NCBI GenBank assembly: GCA_021842465.1
Contig: JAKBZN010000002.1
Span: 1-64,000, forward strand
Length of the DNA stretch: 64,000 nucleotides
Source of the DNA: Pseudomonadota bacterium
GTDB taxonomy: Bacteria > Pseudomonadota > Gammaproteobacteria > Burkholderiales > Burkholderiaceae_F
Reading direction: 5' to 3'
Made by a program: the position numbers and the translations under genes. The notes under the pieces are model-generated. The model saw only the letters and a program-made list of their open reading frames with translations, searched no databases and was not told the origin of the DNA. Positions 1-13,809 of the stretch are shown piece after piece (position 1 is the stretch's first letter; every line of letters starts with the position of its first letter).

Positions 1-46
1 CGGCCACATGCTGCTCCCACTTCGCCCGTCCTTCCGCTTCGTCCAT
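1..46 (-). CDS. Start of an IS66-type accessory transposition protein (TnpA-like), cut by the window edge
   Basis: Only the first 15 residues are visible: MDEAEGRAKWEQHVA. The start ATG is at 44-46 and sits 6 nt after a strong AAGGAG ribosome binding site. The Ala/Glu/Trp-rich opening with an R-x-x-W-E-x-H pattern is like the N-terminus of the small first ORF of IS66-family elements, which precedes a helix-turn-helix. The assignment depends on context (terminus at 127) and too little is present for certainty. Confidence 0.4.
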   Translation of the reverse strand, partial: MDEAEGRAKWEQHVA

Positions 47-127
47 CCGTCGCTCCTTCGTGGTGAAAAGCAACGATGTACGCCGGCCCCAATCACGAGG
101 GAAGAACGTGCTCTACTGACCGCTTAC
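1..127 (-). mobile_element. Left end of an IS66-family-like insertion sequence (partial)
   Basis: Read on the minus strand, the segment ending at 127 starts GTAAGCGGTCAG, which resembles the GTAAGC-type termini of IS66-family elements. About 80 bases further in, a good ribosome binding site (AAGGAG) precedes an ORF entering the window edge. The rest of the element lies outside, so the other inverted repeat and the 8-bp target duplication typical of the family cannot be seen. The family call is inference from terminus plus ORF start. Confidence 0.5.
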
Positions 128-1523
128 GAAAAGCCCTCGCGTCGATGACGGAGGGCTTGTCTTGAGGGTGATCGCTCTGGGGCGTGGGCCCAATTTTCCG
201 CGGACGAGAGCTTTCGCGCGTGAAAGCACCGGCCGATCTGCTAATAATTCAGCTTTCCGGCAATCTGAAATGGCAAGGTGGCGGTTGCTAACCTCTGGGG
301 TGCGCGCCGCAAATTTCGCGACCGGCTCCCTCGAGATTGGATGCTCTTCCCCACCACTGATGCGGCATGCAAAATTTGTCGACGGACTTTATTTGGCACG
401 AATTGACCGCCAGGGAGGTTTTCCGATCTTTCGACGGACTTTACTCCGTTGACGAAGTCGTGAAAAATCAATCCGTTAAAGACCGAATCTTCGACGGACT
501 TTATTTTCCGCCATCAGGTCGCGAATAATAAAGTTCCGAAACTGCTAATAAAGTTCCGAAATTTGAATGGGTGACGACGTAATTAAGTTCCGAAATGGAT
601 GTTCCGGCCAAGTAAATTCGCAAACTGGTGAGGGCGGAAAATGAAGTTCGTCGGGAGCCCTTCATAATGCGGAACGCGGACTGGCGCATCAGGAGGAAAG
701 ATCTATCCTAGCCGGGCGGCTAGCCCCATGCGGGGTTTCCCCGTGAGGCGCTCGGGTTGGTCTTTCGCCGCCACTTAGCGTGTATCGCGGGTCGACGCCA
801 GCAGCCTCCCTGCCTTGAGGGGACTTTGGGGACCAATCCACTCGACCATCTCCGTTCGACCCGATCCGGCTTTTCAAGGTGGTATTGGTTCAGCAGCCGG
901 TATCCAAGTGAAGCGGTCGCCCACCACGCCCGATCAGGGACGGCACGTCGGCCATTCCGGAATTGGGAGCCGGCGGGCAGCGCAGCGGCAAAGCGGCGGA
1001 AAGCCGCCGCCCAAGGGCCCGAGTGATTTGCGCTTCGGCGACGCCCGCTTTCGGGCATCACGCCGAAACCTGGACCCGACCCAATCCGGTCCCCGACGGT
1101 CTCCATAGACCGGTCGCGCGCGCTCCACAGCGGACGTTCTGTCCGCTTGACATTGCCATGATCTCGTTGTGGAATTGAAAAATAATAACGCTACCCTTCG
1201 TGCCAATTCTGCAGCAAACATAGCCGCACGGGTTCCTCCGCGGTTGGTGTCGTATCAGCAGCCCCCGCAAGTCCAGTATTTTGTCCGCCATCCGAGTTTG
1301 CGATGCCGCGGCAGGAAGTACGCAGCAAGCAGTGACGCAGTTGGATCGTCGCACGCATCTTCGTGCGTATCGATTCGTGGTTCAACACGTCGTCGTTTGA
1401 CAAAAGCGTGCTGCGTTTGCGCAGCCAAAAACTTAGATCGGAACCGTGAATCGCTCCTGTACCGCTGCAGCATTCGCCATGCTCCCTTCACGGACCCACA
1501 GAAATGCCTGAAGGACCAAAGTT
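128..1523. other. Long region without a convincing gene
   Basis: Several overlapping ORFs of 60-180 codons exist on both strands, but none has a recognisable domain, a good ribosome binding site and sensible composition together. 239-655 holds the iteron cluster described separately. 700-1110 is GC-rich, with a small hairpin near 722-745 (CCCCATGCGGGG) and overlapping open frames on both strands that look like non-coding or decayed mobile DNA. 1110-1523 is lower in GC. I see no RNA gene here. Confidence 0.5.
239..655. repeat. Cluster of short iterons in two opposite orientations (possible transposase binding sites)
   Basis: Three copies read TCGACGGACTTTAtT on the plus strand (about 379-393, 431-445 and 491-505). 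Three copies read TAATaAAGTTCCGAAA in the other orientation (about 526-541, 546-561 and 580-595). The reverse complement of the first type, AATAAAGTCCGTCGA, resembles the second, so the two sets face each other across about 20 bp. Degenerate copies occur near 239-258, 610-624 and 640-655. Spacing is irregular (20-61 bp). Such arrays are seen at ends of transposons whose transposase binds several sites (IS21, Tn7 and Mu relatives), but no transposase gene remains. Confidence 0.55.
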
Positions 1524-1919
1524 ATGTCACTCATTTCATCTTGTTTTTCGCTTTACGACAATGCAGAGAAAAAAAAGCGACTCTGGTTTCTGTTTTTTTT
1601 TCCTCCTTTTCCCTGGACGTTGGCGCTCTTCTTGGTGGAATCCAACAAGTACATCATGCCCAAGGTGATACCCAAGGGGCACTTCTCATGGCCAATCCTT
1701 GTCTTGTCGGCGTTTTCTTTTGAGTTAGCCATCGGGTTGGTGGCTGTAGGTCTCCTCGTGCCATTTTTCGCTGCCTGGTTGGAGATGGCGGCACGAAGAG
1801 CAAAAAGCATCAATTCATACAATGCCATTGCACTTGTTGGAATCGCGTGGGTTATGGTCTCATGGTTAATTTTCGGCAGGGTAGTTGCTAAATATTGTGT
1901 GTCACTGCTATTCGGTTAA
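1524..1919 (+). CDS. Hypothetical membrane protein, low-GC accessory gene
   Basis: I do not recognise this 131-residue protein. It has three hydrophobic stretches likely to span the membrane: roughly residues 22-42 (Phe/Leu/Pro-rich, after a KKKR patch), 58-85 and 103-126. A loop between them carries AARRAKS. A GAAGGACC sequence upstream is a plausible ribosome binding site. The gene is clearly poorer in GC than the housekeeping genes further on and lies between an IS66 end and a toxin-antitoxin pair, which suggests acquired DNA. No function can be inferred. Confidence 0.5.
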   Translation: MSLISSCFSLYDNAEKKKRLWFLFFFPPFPWTLALFLVESNKYIMPKVIPKGHFSWPILVLSAFSFELAIGLVAVGLLVPFFAAWLEMAARRAKSINSYNAIALVGIAWVMVSWLIFGRVVAKYCVSLLFG

Positions 1920-2035
1920 AGTGGCTCAGGAATCGCGGAGAACGAGTATTTATGCGGATTTCCAGGCATTTTGGTGTCACGCTTCCAATGTGACCCGCGA
2001 TGTCGAAAGTCCCTCAATAGTATGAAGGTGAGCTA

Positions 2036-2155
2036 ATGAATTCTCGCTGGGTGCTCGTGCGGTGGCGCCGCTGGCGATGGGTTGAGAATCATTCGCTTCG
2101 CATTATTCCGGATCCCATCGACCCAGAAATCTCTTTGCGTGTTCGCGCCGACTGA
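2036..2155 (+). CDS. Possible small Arg/Trp-rich protein of 39 residues
   Basis: This short ORF starts MNSRWVLVRWRRWRWVENH and is preceded by AAGGTGAG about 4 nt before the ATG, a good ribosome binding site for its length. It is rich in Arg and Trp in the first half. There is no homology I can name. It may be a genuine small gene or a chance ORF in an accessory region; the ribosome binding site is the only positive evidence. Confidence 0.28.
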   Translation: MNSRWVLVRWRRWRWVENHSLRIIPDPIDPEISLRVRAD

Positions 2156-2353
2156 AAAATGAGCAGATTCGCCATGGTATGCCGGTCATCGAGTGACCAG
2201 CAAGCAACCCAGCTCTTGCAGCAAGATCAACCTCTCACCCGCGATCGTGCTGATCACGGGCAGGTCGGCGCGTCTGGTCAAACTCCGCGCGGCCGCAACA
2301 CGCTGGAGCTGCAACCGTGGTGGCCGAGCGGGGGAAACTGGGCACGAACCGCC

Positions 2354-2545
2354 ATGGCTACGAAGGGGTTGGCGATGGGCGCCCTGGTGGTCATGGCCGA
2401 TTGCGCTGCGAGGGTCTACGGAATCCCGCGGCGCACGGCCGCGCGGCGTCGGTTGATGGGATATTTCGTCGGGCCCTGGATCGCGCTCGCGCTCGTGGGG
2501 TTGGTGGTCGGCATCATCCTCGGTCTGCTGCACCGGCACGGATGA
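2354..2545 (+). CDS. Possible small membrane protein
   Basis: The frame is open from 2159, but only its last part looks protein-like. From the internal ATG at 2354 it gives 63 residues with one clear C-terminal membrane segment (GYFVGPWIALALVGLVVGII) after an Arg-rich stretch (IPRRTAARRRL). The upstream part of the frame is low-complexity and looks like a shadow. No good ribosome binding site is seen at 2354. Function unknown; it could be the remnant of a longer gene. Confidence 0.3.
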   Translation: MATKGLAMGALVVMADCAARVYGIPRRTAARRRLMGYFVGPWIALALVGLVVGIILGLLHRHG

Positions 2546-2823
2546 CGCCTCGATCAAGCGGCGGTGGATTTGGCACGCCGTTTTTGAATACGCCTATCGT
2601 GATAATCCTTCTTATTCATGTCGTCAGGCAGGTTTCAGAGTGGACCAGCCCTTCAGGCGTCCGGTCCGGAGATAGCGTGCCCGACCGGTTATGGCCGGGC
2701 CCGGGCGCCCGCCGCGCCCGGTTTCCGGCGCCGAAATTTTCGCTACTGTACCGAAGCATTGAGGTCCGCGGGAGAGTTCGTGCCAATTTTCACGGCCGCT
2801 TTCTCGGAGAGCGCCCGGAGGCG

Positions 2824-3052
2824 ATGGACGGCGCCCGGGTGGTGATGTGCCACTACCCGCTGCCATCGCGGCACCGTACCATCGGCAGAGCGTACATGCT
2901 GCATGGTCGCAGCCACAACACGATTCCGTTCGACACGTATCGTGGACAGCGACGCGATGTCGGAGTCGATGCGCAGAGCTATACACCGGTCTCCTGGAAG
3001 GAAATTCAGAAGAATCTGGATGCGGTCGCCGCCATGGATGCGCGGGTATCGG
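2824..3052 (+). pseudogene. C-terminal fragment of a calcineurin-like metallophosphoesterase
   Basis: The frame reads VVMCHYPLPSRHRTIGRAY, then MLHGRSHNTIP, then RRDVGVDAQSYTPVSWKEI. This matches the last third of single-domain metallophosphoesterases, which have a metal-binding H-Y-P motif, an H-G-H-S-H motif and a D-V-G-V-D motif followed by P-(I/V)-S. The N-terminal metal motifs (GDxH and GNHD) are absent upstream in any frame, and HGHSH has become HGRSH, so it should be inactive. The fragment ends where the toxin-antitoxin promoter region begins. I read it as a decayed gene interrupted by acquisition of that module. Confidence 0.6.
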
Positions 3053-3053
3053 A

Positions 3054-3416
3054 ATGGACAGCTTGCGCAGAGCGAAGAGAAATCTTGACGCATTGTATTC
3101 GATCGAATACAATGATTTTACGTACTCGATCAAGCCTCTTCCCGAATTTTCGCAATGGCTTGCTGAGATCAAAGACGGCATGACGAAGCGACGGTTGGCT
3201 CGTCGACTGGAAAAGGCGCAACTCGGAAACCTGGGAGACGTAAAAGCGATCGGCGAAGGCGTGTTCGAGATGCGCGAACACTTCGGACCTGGCTGGCGCA
3301 TGTACTACGCGAAGCGCGGCGCGATCCTGATCGTGATGCTGGGCGGTGGCGAAAAATCCACGCAAGCCGGCGATATTGCCAAGGCTCTACATCTGGCCGC
3401 CACGTTGGAGGATTAA
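3054..3416 (+). CDS. RelE/HigB-like (Gp49 type) toxin of a type II toxin-antitoxin module; start uncertain
   Basis: From about 3117 the frame encodes a typical small RNase-type toxin of the phage Gp49/HigB-like family: YSIKPLPEFSQWL, then RLARRLEKAQLGNLGDVKAI, GEGVFEMREHFGPGWRMYY and GGGEKSTQAGDIAKA. These proteins usually cut mRNA on ribosomes when free of antitoxin. The only in-frame ATG upstream is 3054, which would place the promoter and operator inside the gene. The family normally starts right where ATGATTTT occurs at 3112, but that ATG is one base out of frame. The gene could use a non-standard start or carry a one-base loss. The antitoxin gene follows after 3 bp. Confidence 0.75.
   Translation: MDSLRRAKRNLDALYSIEYNDFTYSIKPLPEFSQWLAEIKDGMTKRRLARRLEKAQLGNLGDVKAIGEGVFEMREHFGPGWRMYYAKRGAILIVMLGGGEKSTQAGDIAKALHLAATLED
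3085..3113 (+). promoter_or_regulatory. Sigma-70-like promoter overlapping a perfect 22-bp palindrome (likely toxin-antitoxin operator)
   Basis: TTGACG at 3085-3090 and TACAAT at 3108-3113 are separated by 17 nt. The interval 3092-3113 is a perfect palindrome with half-sites ATTGTATTCGA and TCGAATACAAT, covering the spacer and the -10 box. Antitoxins of this type usually autorepress by binding palindromes over their own promoter, so this is the expected operator for the pair downstream. Confidence 0.65.
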
Positions 3417-3419
3417 GCG

Positions 3420-3719
3420 ATGAGCAAGAAAGTCAAGGTTTCCGATTTGCCGGAGTTTGATGTCACCGAATACCTGGATAGCCCGGAAGCGCTGGCCGAG
3501 TACCTGACCGTCGTCATGGAAGAAAACGACCCCGCTGCGCTGGCTCAGGCGCTCGGAACCATCGCCCGCGCTCGCGGCATGACGGAGATCGCGAAAGCGG
3601 CCGGACTGGGCCGTGAAGCGCTGTACAAGGCGCTTCGCCCTGATGCACATCCGCGCTTCGATACTGTGAACCGCGTATGCACTGCGCTCGGCGTAAAACT
3701 GGTGGCGCAGCCCGTATAG
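3420..3719 (+). CDS. Antitoxin of the addiction module (HigA-like, helix-turn-helix)
   Basis: This 99-residue protein belongs to the probable addiction-module antidote family. It begins with a short basic tail, then the conserved FDVTEYLDSPEALAEYL segment, and a helix-turn-helix in the C-terminal half (MTEIAKAAGLGREALYKAL), ending RFDTVNRVCTALGVKLVAQP. It should bind and neutralise the toxin encoded 3 bp upstream and repress the operon through the palindrome at 3092-3113. The order toxin first, antitoxin second is normal for this subclass. Frame, start and family are clear. Confidence 0.88.
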   Translation: MSKKVKVSDLPEFDVTEYLDSPEALAEYLTVVMEENDPAALAQALGTIARARGMTEIAKAAGLGREALYKALRPDAHPRFDTVNRVCTALGVKLVAQPV

Positions 3720-3796
3720 ATGGCAATTTGCTGGCCCGCAAGGACAGCTCATCGCCGCATTGCCGCCCCGATGCCCGGCGGCAACGATGTCCGGTC

Positions 3797-4014
3797 TGGC
3801 CGAGAACCAGACATGTAGCCTGCAGGACCAGATTCAAGCAGTGGTGTTGCGCGTTGACCCTCACCCCCGCCCTCTCCCGCACGCGGGAGAGGGGGAACGC
3901 AAGCGCGGCGACCTCGACATTGCCAACTCGGATGCCTGCAAACCGGGCTTCTGCTCAGGCCGAGAACCGGATAGGTAGCCTGCAGGACTAGATTCCAGCA
4001 CTTGTATTGCGCGC
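3797..4014. repeat. Pair of 57-bp direct repeats flanking a REP-like hairpin
   Basis: 3797-3853 and 3958-4014 are near-identical: both run GGCCGAGAACC, then GTAGCCTGCAGGAC, AGATTC and AGCA, and end TTGCGCG, offset by about 160 bp. Between them 3870-3893 forms an 11-bp perfect stem (CCCTCTCCCGC / GCGGGAGAGGG) with a 2-nt loop inside a CCTCACCCCCGCCCTCTCCC context. That is a common proteobacterial repetitive extragenic palindrome type. 3720-4058 contains no gene; it lies between the 3' ends of the antitoxin gene and moeB, so the hairpin may also aid termination. Confidence 0.6.
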
Positions 4015-5856: not shown

Positions 5857-6783
5857 TCAGAGTTTCCCCAAGTTGTGCATGACCCGCGCGAACTCCCGCG
5901 GCTTGATCCCGCCGATCGCCCCCGGAATCTGGTTCTTGAATTTGCGGAAGTAGTAGCGGATCGCATCCACCGTGAGGCCGAGGCGGTCGGCGATTTCGTC
6001 GTCGGCCTCCCCCAGCAGCCCGGCTCGCAGCACGTCGGCTTCGCGCGGGGTGAACCGCATCGCGAGCAGCTCGTGGATGTAGGGGCGATATCGCAGCTCC
6101 ATCGCGATCGCGATGCGTTGCGCGGCATAGAACAGCGCGAACACGCCGGTGTCGGACGGCGGCGCGGAGAAGAACGCGAACAGGGCCCCGCGCGAAAGCC
6201 CGCCGCGCGCCGGCACCACCGCAAGACTCGACGCGTCGTCGGTCGCGTTGCGCCGCAGCCAGGTCTTGATGACGTCGGGATGGCGGATTTTCGAGTGGAT
6301 CCAGGAACAATGCTCCGCGATCGTTCCGATCAGCGGACGCCATTCCTGGCTCGCCCGCAGCAGCAGCGGATCGCGCTCGGCGATCATCGTCGCATACAGC
6401 CTTTGCAGGTCCGGCGACATGGTTCCGTGCATGCGTGGCGGAAGCGGGTCGAGTCCGGTGCAGCCGTGGTCGACCAGCACGCACAGGCACTGGCGCATCG
6501 GCACGATGCGGTCCAGACGCTCGCCCAGTTCCGGATCGAGCCGGTCGGAGCCCATGGTTTGCAGCGGCAGCATGAGATCGTCGATGCGCCGCCGAAGCTC
6601 GGAACTCAGGTGCGATGCCGGCTCGCGCCACGGCTCGGACCCGGCGTCGCGCCGGAGCACCGGATGGTCCGGGCGGTCTGCGGCCGGCCGCAGGGTCCGG
6701 CACGGGTCCGGGCGCGTGGCCTGCGGCACGCGGGAATGCAGGGGGGTGGGCTCGGCGAACTGCTTGGCAGACCAGGAAACCAC
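5857..6783 (-). CDS. LuxR-family transcriptional regulator
   Basis: This 308-residue protein ends in a LuxR/FixJ-type helix-turn-helix (MRFTPREADVLRAGLLGEAD, then EIADRLGLTVDAIRYYFRKF, roughly residues 240-285). The N-terminal 230 residues look like a ligand- or signal-sensing domain I cannot assign; there is no receiver aspartate pattern. The start is a GTG at 6781-6783 with a strong AAGGAG site about 6 nt upstream. It lies just downstream of, and in the same direction as, the hybrid kinase, 71 bp away, so the two may be co-transcribed and part of one signalling unit. The signal is unknown. Confidence 0.8.
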   Translation of the reverse strand: MVSWSAKQFAEPTPLHSRVPQATRPDPCRTLRPAADRPDHPVLRRDAGSEPWREPASHLSSELRRRIDDLMLPLQTMGSDRLDPELGERLDRIVPMRQCLCVLVDHGCTGLDPLPPRMHGTMSPDLQRLYATMIAERDPLLLRASQEWRPLIGTIAEHCSWIHSKIRHPDVIKTWLRRNATDDASSLAVVPARGGLSRGALFAFFSAPPSDTGVFALFYAAQRIAIAMELRYRPYIHELLAMRFTPREADVLRAGLLGEADDEIADRLGLTVDAIRYYFRKFKNQIPGAIGGIKPREFARVMHNLGKL

Positions 6784-6854: not shown

Positions 6855-8984
6855 CTACGGATCGGCGTCGACGCGACGCAGATCGAATTCGAATCGCGCG
6901 CCGTGCGGCGACTCGTTCTCCGCGCGCAGCGTGCCGCCGTGCGCGCGGACGATCGCGTTGCAGATCGCCAGGCCGAGGCCGAGACCGGCGCCGACTTCCT
7001 TGGTGGTGAAAAACGGCTCGAACATGCGGGCCATCGCCGCCGGCGTGATGCCCTTGCCGTTGTCCCGGACGGCGATGACGATCCGCTCGTCCTCAATTCG
7101 CGTTTCGATGCGAACCCAGGCCGGCGGGGCCGCGGCGTCGGGGGACCGCGCGCTCGGAGTGCGGGTCGCGGCGGCGGCGTTGGACAGCAGGTTGATCAGC
7201 ACCTGGGTGATTTCGCGCTCGGTTCCGACGGCCCGGCACGACCGTGCGCGCACTTCCACCCGCACCTGCGCCAGTTCGTGGCGACAGAAGCGCAGCGCGG
7301 CGTCGATCGCGGTGGTGACGTCGAAGAGCTGCCGTTCCGCCGTGTCGGGATCGGCGTTTGCGTCGGCTTTCGCGTCGTCACGATGGCGGAACGCGAACAC
7401 CCGCAGGCCGGCGACGATGTGCCCGATCCGGTCGAGGCCGTCGCGGATCGTCTCCACCAGTTCGGCAACCCGGTCGGGTGGTTCCCGCGGCGCCTCGCGC
7501 AGCAAGGCGACGGCGCCCTGCATGTATGACACCGGGTTCTGGATCTCGTGCAGGACGCCGGCGGCGAGCACGCCGATCGACTTGAGTTTTTCGTGCTGGA
7601 TCAGGGCGGCGCGGACCGAGGCGAGCTCGCGGTTGGTGGCCTCGAGCCGGTCGTTGAGCGTGCGCTGCGCGCGCTCGGCCATCGCCGCGCGCGCCAGGTT
7701 GCCCAGGCGTGCGGAGAGTTCGGCGAACGAGAACGGCTTGGCCAGGAAATCGTCGATTCCGCTTTGCAGCGCGGCGAGCCGTTCGGATTCCTCCATGCGT
7801 GCAGTGATCAGCACGACCTTGCATGCGAGGCCTTCGCGCCGCAAGGCGCGCACCAGTTCCAGGCCGTTGATGCCGGGCAGCATCCAGTCCGTGAGCAGCA
7901 CGTCGGGAGCCTGGGTGCGTGCCTGCGCCAGGCCCTCGATGCCGCTGGCCGCGGTCGCCACGTCGAAGCGGTCGGACAGCGCCTGCGCGATCAGCCAGCG
8001 CAATTCGGGCTCGTCCTCGACCAGCAGCACCGTGGGGCGCCGATCGACGATTTCGGCGGACGTCGGGAGGCCTACGTCCGCGGACGGTTCGCAGGCAATC
8101 CAGTTCGATCCCTCGGCGGCGAGATCCGGGGCCGGGGTTGGCGGATGATCCCGGTTCCTCGGCGCGGCATGGGCCGGTCCCCGCCGGGAGATCGGTAGCC
8201 AGACCGTGAACCGCGCACCTTTGCCGGGTGCGCTGCGCAGTTCCAGGCGGCCCGCCAGTTCGCGCGTCCACTCGCGGACCAGGGCCAGGCCGATGCCAAG
8301 GCCCTCATGACGGCACGATGGCGGCACGTTCATCTGACGGAACGGCTCGAAGACGGCGTCGTGGTGTTCCGGGGCGATGCCGATTCCCTGATCCTCGATG
8401 AAAAAGCCGGCTTCGTTTCCCCGCACGCAAGATCCGATGCGGATCTCCCCGCGTCCTGCGGAAAACTTCACGGCGTTGCTGAACAGGTTGAGGACGATGC
8501 ATTCGAGGCCGCGCACGTCGGCGCGGACGCGGACCCCGTCGGCCGCCAACGCGGCGACCAGCGTCGCTGCGCCCAGCCCGGGATGGTGCGAGGCGACGGT
8601 CGTCATACCGCGCAACCACGGATCGAGCGCCACCTCCTCGATCTGCAACGGTTGCCGTCGATCGTGCCGGATCCGTTCCCGCAGCCTTTCCGAAAGATGA
8701 ATCAGTCGCAGGCAGTTTTGCCGTGCGATGCGCACGCATTCTTCCGCCTCCGGTCCGAGTCCCGGCATGCCTGCAAGTCGCTGCAGCGGGCCGTCGACGA
8801 GGGTCAGCGGCGTACGCAACTCGTGCACGAGATGCAGCAGCGACCACAAGCGCCGCACCTCCCGCATTTCGGCGGGAATATTCGCGACTGCCGATCCCGG
8901 CAGCAACCGGCGCCGCAGATTGTGGAACCATGGCCCGTGCCCGCCCCATCCGGAGGCGTCACCCCGGGAGTTGATTGCGCTCAT
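6855..8984 (-). CDS. Hybrid sensor histidine kinase with kinase-receiver-kinase architecture
   Basis: The 709-residue protein has an unusual order. A first dimerisation/phosphoacceptor helix (LVHELRTPLTL, His54) is followed by a first HATPase domain (NLFSNAVKFSAG, EDQGIGIAPE, GLGIGLALV). A receiver follows (VLLVEDEPELRWL, phosphoacceptor in LLTDWMLPGINGLEL, KPFSFAEL), then a second phosphoacceptor helix (AAGVLHEIQNPVSYM) and a second HATPase (LLSNAAAA, DNGKGI, GLGLGLAIC). No membrane segment is seen, so it is probably cytoplasmic. The ATG at 8982-8984 has a good GGAAGGA site and overlaps the start of the divergent response-regulator gene. A phosphorelay between the modules or to that regulator is inferred. 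Confidence 0.88.
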   Translation of the reverse strand: MSAINSRGDASGWGGHGPWFHNLRRRLLPGSAVANIPAEMREVRRLWSLLHLVHELRTPLTLVDGPLQRLAGMPGLGPEAEECVRIARQNCLRLIHLSERLRERIRHDRRQPLQIEEVALDPWLRGMTTVASHHPGLGAATLVAALAADGVRVRADVRGLECIVLNLFSNAVKFSAGRGEIRIGSCVRGNEAGFFIEDQGIGIAPEHHDAVFEPFRQMNVPPSCRHEGLGIGLALVREWTRELAGRLELRSAPGKGARFTVWLPISRRGPAHAAPRNRDHPPTPAPDLAAEGSNWIACEPSADVGLPTSAEIVDRRPTVLLVEDEPELRWLIAQALSDRFDVATAASGIEGLAQARTQAPDVLLTDWMLPGINGLELVRALRREGLACKVVLITARMEESERLAALQSGIDDFLAKPFSFAELSARLGNLARAAMAERAQRTLNDRLEATNRELASVRAALIQHEKLKSIGVLAAGVLHEIQNPVSYMQGAVALLREAPREPPDRVAELVETIRDGLDRIGHIVAGLRVFAFRHRDDAKADANADPDTAERQLFDVTTAIDAALRFCRHELAQVRVEVRARSCRAVGTEREITQVLINLLSNAAAATRTPSARSPDAAAPPAWVRIETRIEDERIVIAVRDNGKGITPAAMARMFEPFFTTKEVGAGLGLGLAICNAIVRAHGGTLRAENESPHGARFEFDLRRVDADP

Positions 8985-9972
8985 GACGGTCCTTCCCCTG
9001 TTTTTTCCGACGCGCGTCGTGCTCATCGACGATGAGCCGCGAATCCTGCGCACCACTTCCTTGTTGCTCGAACGCCTCGCCGCGGTGGCTCAGGTCCTGT
9101 GCTTTGAACGGGCCCAGGACGCCCTCGACCACTTCGCGCGCGTGCGTTCCGGGACCGTCGGCCGCGATCCGTTTCCGTCCATCCGCGCGCGCGACGACTA
9201 CCGCGACGGACCGAACCGCGAAGCGCCCCGCATCCTGCGCGCGCTCGACCTTTCTTCCTGCTGCCTGCGTGCCGCGCTCGATGCGGCGCTGTGCGACCCC
9301 GTCGATTCGCTGGTCGTATGCGACTACGCGATGCCGCAGATGGACGGCATCGCGTTCTTCGAACGCCTTCCCGATCCGCATGTGCGGCGCGTCCTGCTCA
9401 CCGCGCTCTGCGACGAGCGGTTCGCCGTTCAGGCGTTCAATCGCAACCAGATCCACCAGTTCGTCCACAAGGCGGACCCGTCCGGACCCGCGGGGTTGGT
9501 GGTGCTGCTGACCGAGCAACTGCGCGCGTTTTTTCGCGCCCGCACCGCGGCGACGCAGGCCGCCCTCGCCGTGGGAGCCGGCGGCGAGTTTCTCCGCCAT
9601 CCCGGCGTCGGGACATTGCTTGATGTGGTGACGCGCGAATGCGGGGGGCGGGGGTTCGTTTTCCAGCCCGATCCTCCCGGATTTCTCCTGCACTGCGGCC
9701 CGGGGGACTACCGCCTTTTGGCACTGGCCGACGACGCGAGCCTCGACCGCTGCGCCCGGGTCGTCGAGGAAATCGACGGCCCGGGAGCGCTCGCCCGCGC
9801 GCTGCGGGCCCGCGAAGTGATGTCCGTGGGCCGCGACGGCCGGCCCATCTATGAGGCGCACGCCGATTGGCCTGCCGTCGCCCTCGCGCCGAACCGGCAG
9901 GGAGAGCGCGGCGATGCCATCCTGTTCTGGGCGGTGATTCCGTTGGCGCATCGGTGCGAAGAAGGTCGGTGA
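8983..9972 (+). CDS. Response regulator with an expanded receiver domain and an unassigned C-terminal region
   Basis: The N-terminus reads RVVLIDDEPRILRTTSLLLE, the acidic pocket of a receiver. The phosphoacceptor motif VVCDYAMPQMDGIAFFERL follows only near residue 115, and TA then K complete the site (RVLLTALCDE, QFVHKADP). A stretch of about 50 extra residues separates the first two motifs, much longer than in ordinary receivers. The last 130 residues (from about 195) have no recognisable DNA-binding or enzymatic domain. The gene diverges from the hybrid kinase, and their start codons overlap on one CATG, so the two are probably partners. Confidence 0.75.
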   Translation: MTVLPLFFPTRVVLIDDEPRILRTTSLLLERLAAVAQVLCFERAQDALDHFARVRSGTVGRDPFPSIRARDDYRDGPNREAPRILRALDLSSCCLRAALDAALCDPVDSLVVCDYAMPQMDGIAFFERLPDPHVRRVLLTALCDERFAVQAFNRNQIHQFVHKADPSGPAGLVVLLTEQLRAFFRARTAATQAALAVGAGGEFLRHPGVGTLLDVVTRECGGRGFVFQPDPPGFLLHCGPGDYRLLALADDASLDRCARVVEEIDGPGALARALRAREVMSVGRDGRPIYEAHADWPAVALAPNRQGERGDAILFWAVIPLAHRCEEGR

Positions 9973-10104: not shown

Positions 10105-11097
10105 ATGCCCTCTTCTCCGTCGCCGTCCCGGTTTCGTTCGCTTTTGGTGACGCTGCTGGCGATCGCCGTCGTTCCCGCATGGGCTGCGCAATGGAACGGG
10201 CTCGGCGCGGTGGCCGGTCTGCTCGACCCGGCCACCGCCTGTGCCGCACCGCAGGTGATCGGCATCTGCACTTGCGGCGGCGTGCCTTGCGGAGTGCGTA
10301 TCCGGCGCTACGTGCCGGTCGCGATCGTGGAGACCGTGCGTAGCCCGGGGGATTCGATGATCGCGGCGATGCCGTTCCTGCCGTCGACGTTCCGCGACGC
10401 GCTGGCGGCGGCGAGCGGACTCGGCGCCACCGGCAGTTCGTCGCTTTCCACCACCGACAACACCGCCGAGGCGCACGTCTGGACCCTGACGGATCTGCCG
10501 ATTCCGGGGCTGTCCTGCCTCGCCTGCGGCCCCGCTTCGGCGCTGGTTCCCGCCGCCCCGCCGGCCGGCGGCGGAGCCGTCGCCGCAATCTGCGGCGCGG
10601 TCGCCGCGACGGATCAGGCGCTTGCCGCCGCGGCCGGCGCGCTTGCGACACCGGGCATGCCGCGCCTCGTTTATGCCTCCGAACTCGATGCGGTGAATTG
10701 GCGGACGGGATGTCGCGATGTGGCCTCGGCGCTTGCCGCGATCGCCGCCGGATCGATCCCGACGGTCGGCGCCTGGGGCGCGTTGCTGCCGCGCCAGATG
10801 CGCGACATCGGTCCGCCGCCGCGGCTGGCTTCCGCCCTGACCGGCGTGCGCGCGATGAGCTTGGCGCGCGAGCAACTGGGCGTGTTCCCGTTTCCGGTCG
10901 ACACGCAGGGCAAGATGCAGGAGGCGTATCCGGTTGTGAGCGCTTGCTTTCGGGTCGGTCGCCTTCCTCTACCGACCGCGCCCGCGGCAGCGATGCCCGC
11001 CGAGGTCAGCCCCGACGGTCGGTATGCCTGGGTGTACTGGCGCCCGGTGGTCTGCTGCATCGGCGCATCGATGCAGGCGCAATGCCTCCGGCCCTAG
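10105..11097 (+). CDS. Orphan TraU-like protein resembling the integrating conjugative element PFL_4710 family
   Basis: The 330-residue protein has a signal peptide (FRSLLVTLLAIAVVPAWAA). Further features recall TIGR03756-type proteins of genomic-island conjugation systems: a Cys-rich segment VIGICTCGGVPCGVRIRRYV, LDAVNWRTG, GAWGALLPRQ, and an ending YAWVYWRPVVCC. Those proteins work in the periplasm in mating-pair assembly. Conserved cysteines are retained. No other conjugation gene is nearby, so its role is doubtful: remnant or repurposed. The start at 10105 is chosen because it gives the signal peptide; upstream codons are not protein-like. The stop codon overlaps that of the convergent bioC-like gene on one CTAG. 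Confidence 0.65.
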   Translation: MPSSPSPSRFRSLLVTLLAIAVVPAWAAQWNGLGAVAGLLDPATACAAPQVIGICTCGGVPCGVRIRRYVPVAIVETVRSPGDSMIAAMPFLPSTFRDALAAASGLGATGSSSLSTTDNTAEAHVWTLTDLPIPGLSCLACGPASALVPAAPPAGGGAVAAICGAVAATDQALAAAAGALATPGMPRLVYASELDAVNWRTGCRDVASALAAIAAGSIPTVGAWGALLPRQMRDIGPPPRLASALTGVRAMSLAREQLGVFPFPVDTQGKMQEAYPVVSACFRVGRLPLPTAPAAAMPAEVSPDGRYAWVYWRPVVCCIGASMQAQCLRP

Positions 11098-12011
11098 CGC
11101 GGCCTCCGCGACCCCGGCATGGCGATGGTCGCGATGCCCGCCGCCGCCGTTGCGCGCGGCCGCCCCTTCCATCCGTGTCCGATCACGATCTCGAAGGTGA
11201 GCGCGATGCGTCCTTCCGCATCCCGCAGGGCGTCGAGTTCGGCGTGCAGCGCACGGGCCACCCGGCCCGATGGCAGGCCGCGCGCCCGGTCCCCGCGCGG
11301 GTTGGCGCCGAGGGCGCGCACTTCGGTCAGCAATGCGGTCGCGTCGGCGAAGGTGAGCCGCAGCGTTTCGGACTCGGTCACCGGCGTCTCAAATCCCGCC
11401 GAGATCAGCATGTCGCCAAAATCGTGCATGTCGACGTAGGGCATCGGCCGCGCCGCCACCCCGGCACGCAGGCAGGCGGCGCGCAATTCCCGCAGGGTGT
11501 CCGGCCCATAGGCGCTGAACAGCACGAGGCCGCCCGGCCGCAACACGCGGGCGACTTCGGCGACGACGTCGTGGGGCGCCGGGTGCCAGGGCAGCATGAG
11601 GTTGGAGAACACCAGATCGATCGACTCGTCGGGCCACGGCAGGTGGCTGGCGTCGGCGCACACCGCCCACGGAGGCTCGGCCCGGCGCGACAGCAGCGCG
11701 CGCCAGCGCCGCAGGCCGCTCGCATGGGCGCGACCGTCATGCGCCGGATCCGCCCGCAGCATGGCCTCCGAGAGATCAGCGCCGAAGATCCGCGCGTCGG
11801 GAAACCGTGCCTGCAGCGCGGCGCGGCTTCGTCCCGCGCCGCAGCCCAGGTCGAGGATGCGGGCCGGGGCGTGGCGCAGCACCGACATCCGCTCGATCAG
11901 CCGGTTGCCGGTTTCCCGCACCAGCGCGTCGTGTTCCGCGAAGCGCGCAGCGCGGGCATCGAACTGGCGGCGAACGGTGGGAACGAGGATTTGGGTGCGG
12001 TCGGAGTTCAT
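11094..12011 (-). CDS. bioC: Malonyl-ACP O-methyltransferase-like SAM methyltransferase (BioC family)
   Basis: A class I SAM-dependent methyltransferase of 305 residues. Motif I is ARILDLGCGAGRSRAAL near residue 52, followed by FGADLSEAML, a motif near residue 125 with DASHLPWPDESIDLVFSNLM, and RPGGLVLFSAYGPDTL. The DLVFSNLxLxW signature and the FGPDTL-like motif fit BioC, which methylates malonyl-ACP to start pimelate synthesis for biotin. No bioF, bioA, bioD or bioB is adjacent. Its ATG directly follows the ftsX stop (TAGATG), so it is translationally coupled to ftsEX. BioC is favoured over a generic methyltransferase but not certain. Confidence 0.8.
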   Translation of the reverse strand: MNSDRTQILVPTVRRQFDARAARFAEHDALVRETGNRLIERMSVLRHAPARILDLGCGAGRSRAALQARFPDARIFGADLSEAMLRADPAHDGRAHASGLRRWRALLSRRAEPPWAVCADASHLPWPDESIDLVFSNLMLPWHPAPHDVVAEVARVLRPGGLVLFSAYGPDTLRELRAACLRAGVAARPMPYVDMHDFGDMLISAGFETPVTESETLRLTFADATALLTEVRALGANPRGDRARGLPSGRVARALHAELDALRDAEGRIALTFEIVIGHGWKGRPRATAAAGIATIAMPGSRRPR

Positions 12012-12956
12012 CTAGCCGGCGCCGCCCGCCCGGCGCAGGGCGGACCGGGTTGCCTGCGATGCGACGGCGGCGCCCAGCAGCCCGCCCACCGGGCACAGCA
12101 GCCATGCGAACGCCAGCGGGGTCGGGGCGTCCGCCCATCGCAGGGAATATTCGGTGGCGAGTTCGGCAACGACCGGGGCCAGCCGGGCGCCGGCCCAGAC
12201 CACGATGGCGGCGGCGAACCCACCGGCCACCGCCATGCTGATCGCGCCCGCATAGACGTAGGGCCGCCGCAGTGCCGCAGGCTCCATGCCGAGGATCTGG
12301 AACACCCGCAGTTCCTCCGGGTCGAGCCGCAACGCCACCCGGGGCCACAGATCGGCGATCAGCGAGAACCCGGCCACCAGCGCCGCAAGCAGCGTCAGGC
12401 CCAGCAGCGTTCCGGCGCGGGTGGCGAAATGGGTCAACGCGGCGAGCTTGCGCGCCGTCCCCGGTTCGTAGGCCACCGCGGTGACGCCCTTGTGCGCCCG
12501 CATCGCCGCGACCGCCGCTTCGATCGCGGCGGGCGTCGCGGCGGGGTCGAAGCGCACGATGAACGCATTGGGCAAGGGGTTGGGCTGCAGATCATTCAAG
12601 CCGCTGTCGGCCAGGCTTTTGCGCGCCACCAGCGCCGCGCGCGCGGCGTCGCGGCCGACGAACTCGACGGCAACGACGGGCCCGGCCTGGCGCAGGTCGC
12701 TGCGCATCGCATCAAGGTCGGCCAAGCGTTCGTTGCGCGCCGCGAACACGAGCGCGGACGGAACCGCCCAGGCCGGGCGTTCGGGCGGCCACGTACGCCA
12801 TGCCGCGGTGCCGATCAGGACCGCCGCCGCGACGACCGCCCCGGTGCACAGTGCCGAAACCGCCAGCGTCAACGGCTTGCGGAACAGCCCGCGCAAGGCG
12901 AACCGCAATGCCGCGGCCCGGCTCGACCCGATGCGTTGCGCCGCGGCGGCACTCAT
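12012..12956 (-). CDS. ftsX: Cell division protein FtsX
   Basis: FtsX is the membrane subunit of FtsEX, which links cytokinesis to activation of peptidoglycan hydrolases. The 314-residue protein has four membrane segments in the normal order: one near residues 27-50 (LAVSALCTGAVVAAAVLIG), then a periplasmic domain of about 120 residues (NAFIVRFDPAATP, then KGVTAVAYEP), then three more near 185-205, 235-260 and 280-305. RLDPEELRVFQILGM is the conserved cytoplasmic loop. Its start overlaps the ftsE stop by 4 bp (ATGA). The family call is secure although the sequence is divergent and Ala-rich, matching the decayed partner FtsE. Confidence 0.88.
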   Translation of the reverse strand: MSAAAAQRIGSSRAAALRFALRGLFRKPLTLAVSALCTGAVVAAAVLIGTAAWRTWPPERPAWAVPSALVFAARNERLADLDAMRSDLRQAGPVVAVEFVGRDAARAALVARKSLADSGLNDLQPNPLPNAFIVRFDPAATPAAIEAAVAAMRAHKGVTAVAYEPGTARKLAALTHFATRAGTLLGLTLLAALVAGFSLIADLWPRVALRLDPEELRVFQILGMEPAALRRPYVYAGAISMAVAGGFAAAIVVWAGARLAPVVAELATEYSLRWADAPTPLAFAWLLCPVGGLLGAAVASQATRSALRRAGGAG

Positions 12957-13720
12957 GCGGCGACCCTCCCGTCCCGAAGGCGCAGGATCCGGGCGCGCGC
13001 CGGCCAGCGCCCGGCGGCCCGATGCTCTGGCGCGGAGGTCGCGTCGGGGTTGAGATCGGCATCCGGCCGGGAATCTGCCGGCGCGCGGGTCGACGCGACG
13101 ACCGTCACGCCCGCCCCGGCGAACTGATCGACGACCGCGACGAGCTGCGCCGCGACCGGCGCGTCGAGATTTTCGAGCAGATCGTCGAGCAGCAGCAGCG
13201 CCGGCCGGTTCACGAGTGCGCGCGCCAGCGCGACGCGGCGCGCCTCGCCGCTCGCCAGGTCGGCACAACGGATCCCGCCGAGGCGATTCGCATCCAGGCC
13301 TACGAGTTCGAGCGCCGCGCGTGCGCGCCGCAACCCCTCGTCGGTGCCGACGTCGGCCACCCACGCCGCGAACGCCACGTTGTCCAGCACGCTGTGCCGG
13401 GCCAGTAGCGGCGCGGCCGCCGACAGGATGCCCAGGGATCGTCGCAGATGGGCGCGCGCCAACGGACCGACCGCAGCGAGGTCTTCCCCGGCGATACGGA
13501 TCACGCCCGCGCTGGGAACGTCCAGACCGGCGAGCAGGCGCAGCAGAACGCTCTTGCCGCTGCCGCCGGGGCCTTCGACCACGACGAACTCGCCGCGTCG
13601 CACCTGCAGGTCGATTCCCTGCAGCGCCGGGCGAAGCGCGCCGTAGCGCTTTTCCACGCCCTCGGCGGACAGCACCGGGGTGGCGACGTTGGGGGCCGAC
13701 AGGGTGGGTTCTTTTTTCAC
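12953..13720 (-). CDS. ftsE: Cell division ATP-binding protein FtsE, with degenerate ATPase motifs
   Basis: This ABC ATPase of 255 residues is placed as FtsE by its position directly before ftsX and by its overall length. Walker A is intact (GPGGSGKS near residue 50). Other motifs deviate: the Q-loop glutamine is missing (GILSAAAPLL); the signature reads LASGEARR instead of LSGGEQQR; Walker B reads LLLLDDLLENLD, with Asp in place of the catalytic Glu; and the H-loop reads VVASTRAP, with Arg in place of His. It probably binds ATP but hydrolyses it poorly, if at all (inference). The C-terminal 40 residues are an Arg/Pro/Ala-rich extension. The start is a GTG at 13718-13720; no in-frame ATG is near. 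Confidence 0.82.
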   Translation of the reverse strand: MKKEPTLSAPNVATPVLSAEGVEKRYGALRPALQGIDLQVRRGEFVVVEGPGGSGKSVLLRLLAGLDVPSAGVIRIAGEDLAAVGPLARAHLRRSLGILSAAAPLLARHSVLDNVAFAAWVADVGTDEGLRRARAALELVGLDANRLGGIRCADLASGEARRVALARALVNRPALLLLDDLLENLDAPVAAQLVAVVDQFAGAGVTVVASTRAPADSRPDADLNPDATSAPEHRAAGRWPARARILRLRDGRVAA

Positions 13721-13809
13721 GGCTTCCGGAGGAAGGCAGGAACTGGCGCGGATTGTACGTGGGGGCGATACCCGCTCCGGCCCGCCGCGCGTCTGTCACA
13801 CTCCCTTTC

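Follow-up and report, generated by a model that had tools for sequence, protein, structure and literature searches.

How does a regulator of a family known from quorum sensing come to share bases of its start codon with a double histidine kinase transcribed in the opposite direction? The question is raised by a stretch of 64,000 nucleotides from a bacterium of the order Burkholderiales (contig JAKBZN010000002.1 of assembly GCA_021842465.1, positions 1 to 64,000; hereafter the window), in which a gene for a hybrid kinase and a gene for a response regulator start head-to-head on a single CATG. Our preferred reading, to which we assign a probability of about 0.6, is that the regulator is of the LqsR type, has been uncoupled from quorum sensing, and is paired as a two-component module with a cytosolic single-chain kinase of the order histidine kinase-receiver-histidine kinase (HK-REC-HK), which resembles the LvrA/LvrB cascade. 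This combination and the flipped, overlapping gene order were seen in one genus only among the genomes searched, and each of the elements was already known. In a limited literature search, from which we make no wider claim, none of the titles listed described the pairing of LqsR with a divergent hybrid histidine kinase.

Domains of the kinase and overlap of the start codons

An earlier interpretation made from the DNA letters alone (the sequence-only reading) had described one protein in which a receiver stands between two complete kinase cores, beside a divergent response regulator. Both descriptions were borne out. Pfam detected two HisKA domains, two HATPase_c domains, and one Response_reg domain (residues 319-427) in the kinase, with the expected phospho-site motifs, and the regulator is a 329-codon open reading frame (ORF) on the forward strand from position 8983, with a partial Response_reg match (residues 109-163; a long insertion splits the domain) that includes D114. 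The motifs around H54, D366, and H479 of the kinase and D114 of the regulator (window numbering) were complete in four of four orthologous loci; in the kinase of genome G003, H54 stands within HEWRTP. The first kinase core (HK1) contains H54 together with N and G boxes. The ATP-binding core of the second (HK2) is complete, with N, G1, F, and G2 boxes kept in all four loci and an HExxN box present. Membrane-span prediction covered the window kinase and the three orthologous proteins, and no span was found in the kinase (maximum 19-residue hydropathy, 1.35); Pfam recognized no sensor domain in it. With four candidates scored per genome, the kinase was found at E 1e-60 in two of 250 genomes of the order, both from this genus, and no plasmid record carried it at 1e-40.

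The two start codons had also been placed on one CATG, and this overlap was found as described. The ATG of the regulator occupies 8983-8985 and that of the kinase 8984-8982, leaving two bases (8983-8984) common to both, and the CATG was identical in all four loci of the genus (the window and three orthologs). The predicted start codons of both genes are well supported. The Shine-Dalgarno-like AGGGGAAGGA lies five bases upstream of the kinase ATG in each of the four loci; inside the regulator gene it is accompanied by a Leu codon, CTT, that accounts for 10 of the 196 Leu codons counted in four genes of the window. The regulator start is supported by the resemblance of its N-terminus to those of distant relatives (MTVLPLFFPT in the window, MSLPLFYFPT in locus L041). 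With predicted start codons that overlap on opposite strands in four of four loci, the genes form a divergent overlapping pair. In the tables of a survey of 58 genomes, by our computation, divergent overlaps make up 331 of 14,958, and 57 of these are shorter than 5 nt (PMC2174442, Tables 2 and 3).

Alternative starts were also considered. A GTG further upstream in the kinase frame (9056) was not preferred, having AAGGA only one base away, compared with the five bases that separate AGGGGAAGGA from the ATG at 8984. A TTG upstream of the regulator (8971) is present in the window and absent from the three orthologs. The ratio of nonsynonymous to synonymous substitution rates (dN/dS; six pairs per gene) was 0.18-0.30 for the regulator and 0.26-0.31 for the kinase, indicating purifying selection on both genes and ruling out a chance pair of ORFs. 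The features of the locus are listed in Table 1.

Table 1. Positions of the features at the kinase-regulator locus and of its immediate neighbours in the window.
Feature	Position	Strand	Basis or conservation
Hybrid kinase, 709 aa, HK1-REC-HK2	6855..8984	-	ORF from ATG 8984; Pfam
HK1 core, about residues 46-275, predicted phospho-acceptor His54	8160..8849	-	Pfam and motifs
Receiver domain, residues 319-427, predicted phospho-acceptor Asp366	7704..8030	-	Pfam and motifs
HK2 core, about residues 456-709, predicted phospho-acceptor His479	6858..7619	-	Pfam and motifs
LqsR/PhcX-type response regulator, 329 aa, Asp114; receiver with long insertion and LqsR-type C-terminal domain	8983..9972	+	
CATG, common to both divergent start codons (2-base overlap)	8982..8985		kept in 4/4 genus loci
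AGGGGAAGGA, Shine-Dalgarno-like, kinase gene; within regulator codons 3-6	8990..8999	-	kept in 4/4
GGGAG, candidate weak ribosome site of the regulator, 12 nt from ATG	8966..8970	+	kept in 4/4
Kinase-gene stretch (codons 14-51) with few synonymous changes; candidate regulator promoter region	8832..8945	+	weak; three widths, two genes scanned
LuxR-like gene (GerE below Pfam cut-off), 71 nt after kinase stop; separable neighbour	5857..6783	-	
TraU/TIGR03756-like gene after the regulator	10105..11097	+	ORF open from 10003; start 10105 chosen as likely

Relationship of the regulator to LqsR and PhcX

The best solved match of the regulator was LqsR of Legionella (6SY9). A single-sequence phmmer search gave an E value of 2.9e-16 over residues 5-186, and a nine-sequence profile, which contains distant relatives, gave 3.4e-86 over residues 3-312. 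The predicted model of the regulator (mean predicted local distance difference test score, 72) was aligned with 6SY9 over 278 residues (Z 21.7; root-mean-square deviation, 3.4), and the next structures in order reached a Z of about 18 over the receiver alone. Because the profile and model matches to 6SY9 extend across the receiver and the C-terminal domain, the regulator is a member of the LqsR/PhcX family. Its receiver phospho-site is intact: the equivalent of LqsR D108 is D114, which lies in CDYAMP and is accompanied by the DD, T, and K sites in all four loci. The C-terminal domain is not a recognized DNA-binding one.

The regulator was 17-27% identical to five relatives outside the genus. 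In a tree of 36 rows, from which loci L061, L080, L063, and L073 were left out, the genus clade joined the regulators of genomes G017 and G108 (85/83) on a stem of 2.79 changes per column, which carries a long-branch warning. Three plasmid records contained a regulator, all of them distant. A scan of genome contigs gave three loci, of which L031 and L032 are taken as the contigs of G001 and G003, and L033 is a 55-residue match to the receiver only. The sequence-only reading had overlooked both the LqsR/PhcX type of the regulator and the other gene arrangement that is usual among its relatives.

Arrangement of LqsR-family loci and search for a synthase

Forty LqsR-family loci were examined, four from the genus and 36 from outside it, with several loci coming from one genome; at most six candidates were scored per genome, and some listed places lie outside the 40 loci. 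In all four genus loci the kinase is adjacent to the regulator and head-to-head with it, an arrangement found in none of the 36 others. Of the latter, 24 have the kinase upstream and in the same orientation as the regulator (the kinase domain ending at a distance of up to 1,114 bases). One (L042) has it downstream on the opposite strand, and one (L038) has it on the opposite strand some 2.1 kb upstream, with a further ORF in between; 10 had no kinase within the flanking DNA examined (1500 bases on each side for most). The names LqsS-, PhcS-, and PhcR-like used here for kinases are labels that we assigned on the basis of architecture and gene neighbours, and they do not come from a database.

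Two of these loci deserve separate mention. In L042, from a genome with four regulator matches (G100), the kinase is convergent with the LqsR-type regulator, which constitutes a third arrangement. In L038 (G096), the LqsR-type regulator lies near a PhcS-like kinase, a PhcR-like REC-HK protein, and a further receiver protein, in a genome without a synthase over the cut-off; L038 is another non-lqs setting of an LqsR relative.

In three genomes of the same order (G067, G076, and G082; loci L037, L039, and L040), the relative of the regulator adjoins an LqsS-like kinase and a synthase scoring over the NF005526 cut-off. In G017, a member of the same family, the synthase and the regulator are on one contig, with the kinase upstream of the regulator on the same strand (L036). 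An LqsA/CqsA-type synthase over the cut-off was found in none of the seven genus genomes (completeness, 89% for G000 and given as 100% for G002 and G003), while 4 of 101 relatives passed. Matches below the cut-off occurred in six of the seven genus genomes and in 8 of 14 control genomes. No LqsS-type membrane sensor kinase adjoins the regulator; no search for one was made elsewhere in the genome. Since no synthase of the genus passes the cut-off, the regulator looks uncoupled from alpha-hydroxyketone signalling.

Conservation of the pair within the genus

Three further genomes of the genus carry both genes, with regulators 86-89% and kinases 77-82% identical to those of the window. Both genes, their phospho-sites, and the CATG are kept in the same four of seven genus genomes, which answers the call of the sequence-only reading for a check of conservation, and in no genus genome is one gene intact and the other missing. 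The three genomes without an intact pair are 64-88% complete. G004 contains a regulator fragment with stops beside the LuxR-like gene, and no kinase was found there. G006 contains a kinase fragment beside the same gene; the match begins at residue 493, beyond both the receiver and His479, and 576 bases later the contig stops. Neither kinase nor regulator was found beside the LuxR-like gene of G005. Flanking repeats that would mark the pair as an insertion did not exceed chance in any of the three loci tested (best, 8 bases; shuffle P 0.46). Gain of the pair in this genus and its loss in the related genus g7 both fit these data and cannot be told apart.

Control regions and expression

Because the genes overlap at their starts, the control region of each must sit in the partner gene. 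The sequence-only reading had proposed this for the promoters, and it follows from the geometry of the predicted starts. A hint of where the regulator promoter region might lie comes from kinase codons 14-51 (38-151 nt before the regulator), where one of 26 scorable codons has changed synonymously. Among windows of 25 codons, the best gave a shuffle P of 0.014, the other two widths gave 0.098 and 0.68, and no width fell below 0.116 in the regulator gene. A sigma-70 scan returned 0 sites (0.1 in shuffles), a result of little weight at a genomic GC content close to 70%. No terminator was found by scanning (0.5 in shuffles), and the inverted repeats near the start were short and not convincing. 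Since each gene carries the upstream control region of the other, expression of the kinase and the regulator is probably coupled.

There is an even chance that the start overlap has no regulatory meaning and is a by-product of compaction, with independent promoters in the coding regions and no interference between them; this would be compatible with a functional pairing of the two proteins. Short divergent overlaps are rare but known (PMC2174442), and the synonymous depletion is weak and one-sided. On the other hand, the arrangement is invariant in four of four loci, and the kinase Shine-Dalgarno sequence is kept within the regulator together with the uncommon CTT, although neither observation shows regulation.

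Proposed mechanism and alternatives

In the two-component module that we propose, HK1 would autophosphorylate at His54, and the phosphate would pass to Asp366 of the internal receiver. This receiver, placed as in the Rec-controlled kinase LvrB, would switch HK2 on or off. HK2, through His479, would then add phosphate to Asp114 of the regulator or remove it, and the C-terminal domain of this LqsR-type protein would give the output. All steps would be cytosolic. Because lqs loci have an LqsS-type sensor kinase and an autoinducer synthase, both missing here, the input is probably intracellular or relayed.

Several points weigh against this reading. The partnership of the two proteins is inferred from their adjacency and from the co-occurrence of intact copies of both genes; HK2 might act on a different regulator, and HK1 with the receiver could act via a histidine phosphotransfer (HPt) protein, for which no search was made. 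The regulator is very divergent, as its long stem and the accompanying warning indicate, and its output may differ from that of LqsR. G096 and G100 also have LqsR-type genes and no synthase that passes the cut-off, and most of Ralstonia likewise has PhcX without a synthase, PhcX being uncoupled from lqsA and lqsS (PMC10653808). The synthase-free state is thus not peculiar to the genus, and the absence of a synthase proves less about this locus. The synonymous-site signal is weak. Three of the four genomes with an intact pair are in 30-150 contigs (G002 is a single contig), and the absence of the pair from G005 may be a gap, given the 64-88% completeness of the genomes without it.

It is rather improbable that the phosphate instead follows a four-step relay starting in one chain, from His54 to Asp366, His479, and finally Asp114, with the helix hairpin of HK2 serving as an HPt-like step and not as a receiver-gated kinase. 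The order of the H, D, and H sites along the chain, followed by Asp114 of the partner, would fit a BvgS-like His-Asp-His-Asp relay, and a comparison with BvgS has been made for the Lvr proteins (PMC5863495). However, the complete and conserved ATP-binding core of HK2, with its HExxN box, is not needed in a pure HPt step, and the receiver of LvrB is described as gating a competent kinase (PMC13269768).

We consider it still less probable that the genes are neighbours and not partners, with the regulator depending on a different kinase, or on none, and the hybrid kinase acting on a different regulator: each genome contains 47-78 further kinase-like stretches (loose first-look matches), the Ralstonia relative PhcX works away from the lqs genes (PMC10653808), and 10 of the 36 outside loci had no kinase in the flanks examined, but the two genes are adjacent in four of four genus genomes in which either is intact.

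Neighbouring genes

The pair is flanked by two genes, one LuxR-like and the other TraU/TIGR03756-like. The LuxR-like protein had been drawn into the phosphorelay by the sequence-only reading, and this part was rejected because Pfam found no receiver domain in it and because the gene persists without the pair. It was found in 9 of 67 genomes of the family, namely all seven of the genus, even the three that lack an intact pair, and two genomes of genus g7 (G012 and G026) in which the pair is absent. In the g7 loci (L093 and L094), it lies directly beside a TraU-like gene and divergent from it, with no kinase or regulator between them. The G001 match consisted of two pieces in one search and was an end-to-end alignment in another. 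Comparison of the LuxR-like protein with solved structures gave no meaningful match.

The TraU/TIGR03756-like gene, of integrating-conjugative-element type, stands alone and is kept in all four genus loci with the pair. It is followed by a BioC-like methyltransferase gene (11094-12011, - strand; below the family cut-off), kept in three of three orthologous loci, and by a 595-aa FtsX-like ORF (12012-13799, - strand), for which the NCBIfam match is confined to residues 347-588 and which is present in two of three orthologous loci. Positions 1-4000 of the window have a GC content of 55-61%, compared with 65-72% in the remainder, and the two ORFs tested there had no Pfam match.

A more speculative extension, which we hold to be unlikely, is that the locus is a compact separable cassette in which a former quorum-sensing LqsR regulator was re-paired with the single-chain double kinase and set or kept between the divergent LuxR-like and TraU-like genes. 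Nested divergent promoters would then drive both neighbours, and transcription of the kinase and the regulator would compete, with promoter interference setting their ratio.

Comparison with known systems

The regulator shares with LqsR (Legionella pneumophila, 6SY9) and PhcX (Ralstonia solanacearum) the receiver insertion and the LqsR-type C-terminal domain, with a near full-length structural match to 6SY9. In contrast to those systems, its neighbouring partner is a soluble HK-REC-HK protein encoded head-to-head, no synthase passes the cut-off, and no LqsS-type kinase lies beside it. The lqsS and lqsR genes of L. pneumophila point towards each other and flank hdeD (PMC3376566). In the lqs/jqs-like loci (L037, L039, and L040, and L036 of G017), an LqsR-type regulator also lies beside a histidine kinase gene, as here, but there the kinase precedes the regulator in the same orientation, with a nearby synthase that passes the cut-off, whereas the window kinase is divergent and of another type. 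PhcX provides the precedent for uncoupling from lqsA and lqsS (PMC10653808). The known settings of LqsR-type regulators are alpha-hydroxyketone quorum sensing and, as PhcX, a co-option in Ralstonia; the present locus looks like a further uncoupled case, differing in the type of neighbouring kinase and in the flipped gene order. Nothing at the locus overturns known biology. It does allow one to ask how a regulator without a recognized DNA-binding domain changes partners, and its naturally conserved two-base divergent start overlap would be useful for tests of promoter interference.

The Phc system (the kinase PhcS, the REC-HK protein PhcR, and PhcQ) offers a second comparison. HK2 was 38.6% identical over 264 residues to the PhcS-like kinase of L038, the closest among the kinases compared, and the internal receiver was 30% identical over 110 residues to the PhcR-like protein of the same locus; HK1 showed general similarity only. 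Unlike the Phc proteins, the window kinase is fused and without a membrane span, and HK2 matches the kinase core of the PhcR-like protein over 48 residues only.

The Lvr proteins of Leptospira are the closest parallel in layout. LvrA is a PAS-HK-REC-HK protein, predicted to be cytoplasmic, with the same HK-REC-HK order as the window kinase (PMC5863495). The LvrA model NF047465 aligned with the window kinase in one stretch (residues 52-704) at 198 bits, against a cut-off of 1200, so the cytosolic window kinase, despite its HK-REC-HK order, is not a member of the LvrA family. It also differs from LvrA in that no PAS domain was found in it and in that its neighbour is an LqsR-type regulator, not LvrB or LvrC. 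In vitro results suggest that phosphate is transferred from the histidine of the first LvrA kinase to the receiver of LvrB (PMC5863495). LvrB, a REC-HK protein, is described as the prototype Rec-controlled kinase, switched by phosphorylation of its receiver (PMC13269768). The REC-HK2 part of the window kinase has the layout of such Rec-controlled kinases, and the locus may serve as a single-chain model of a cascade of the LvrA/LvrB type.

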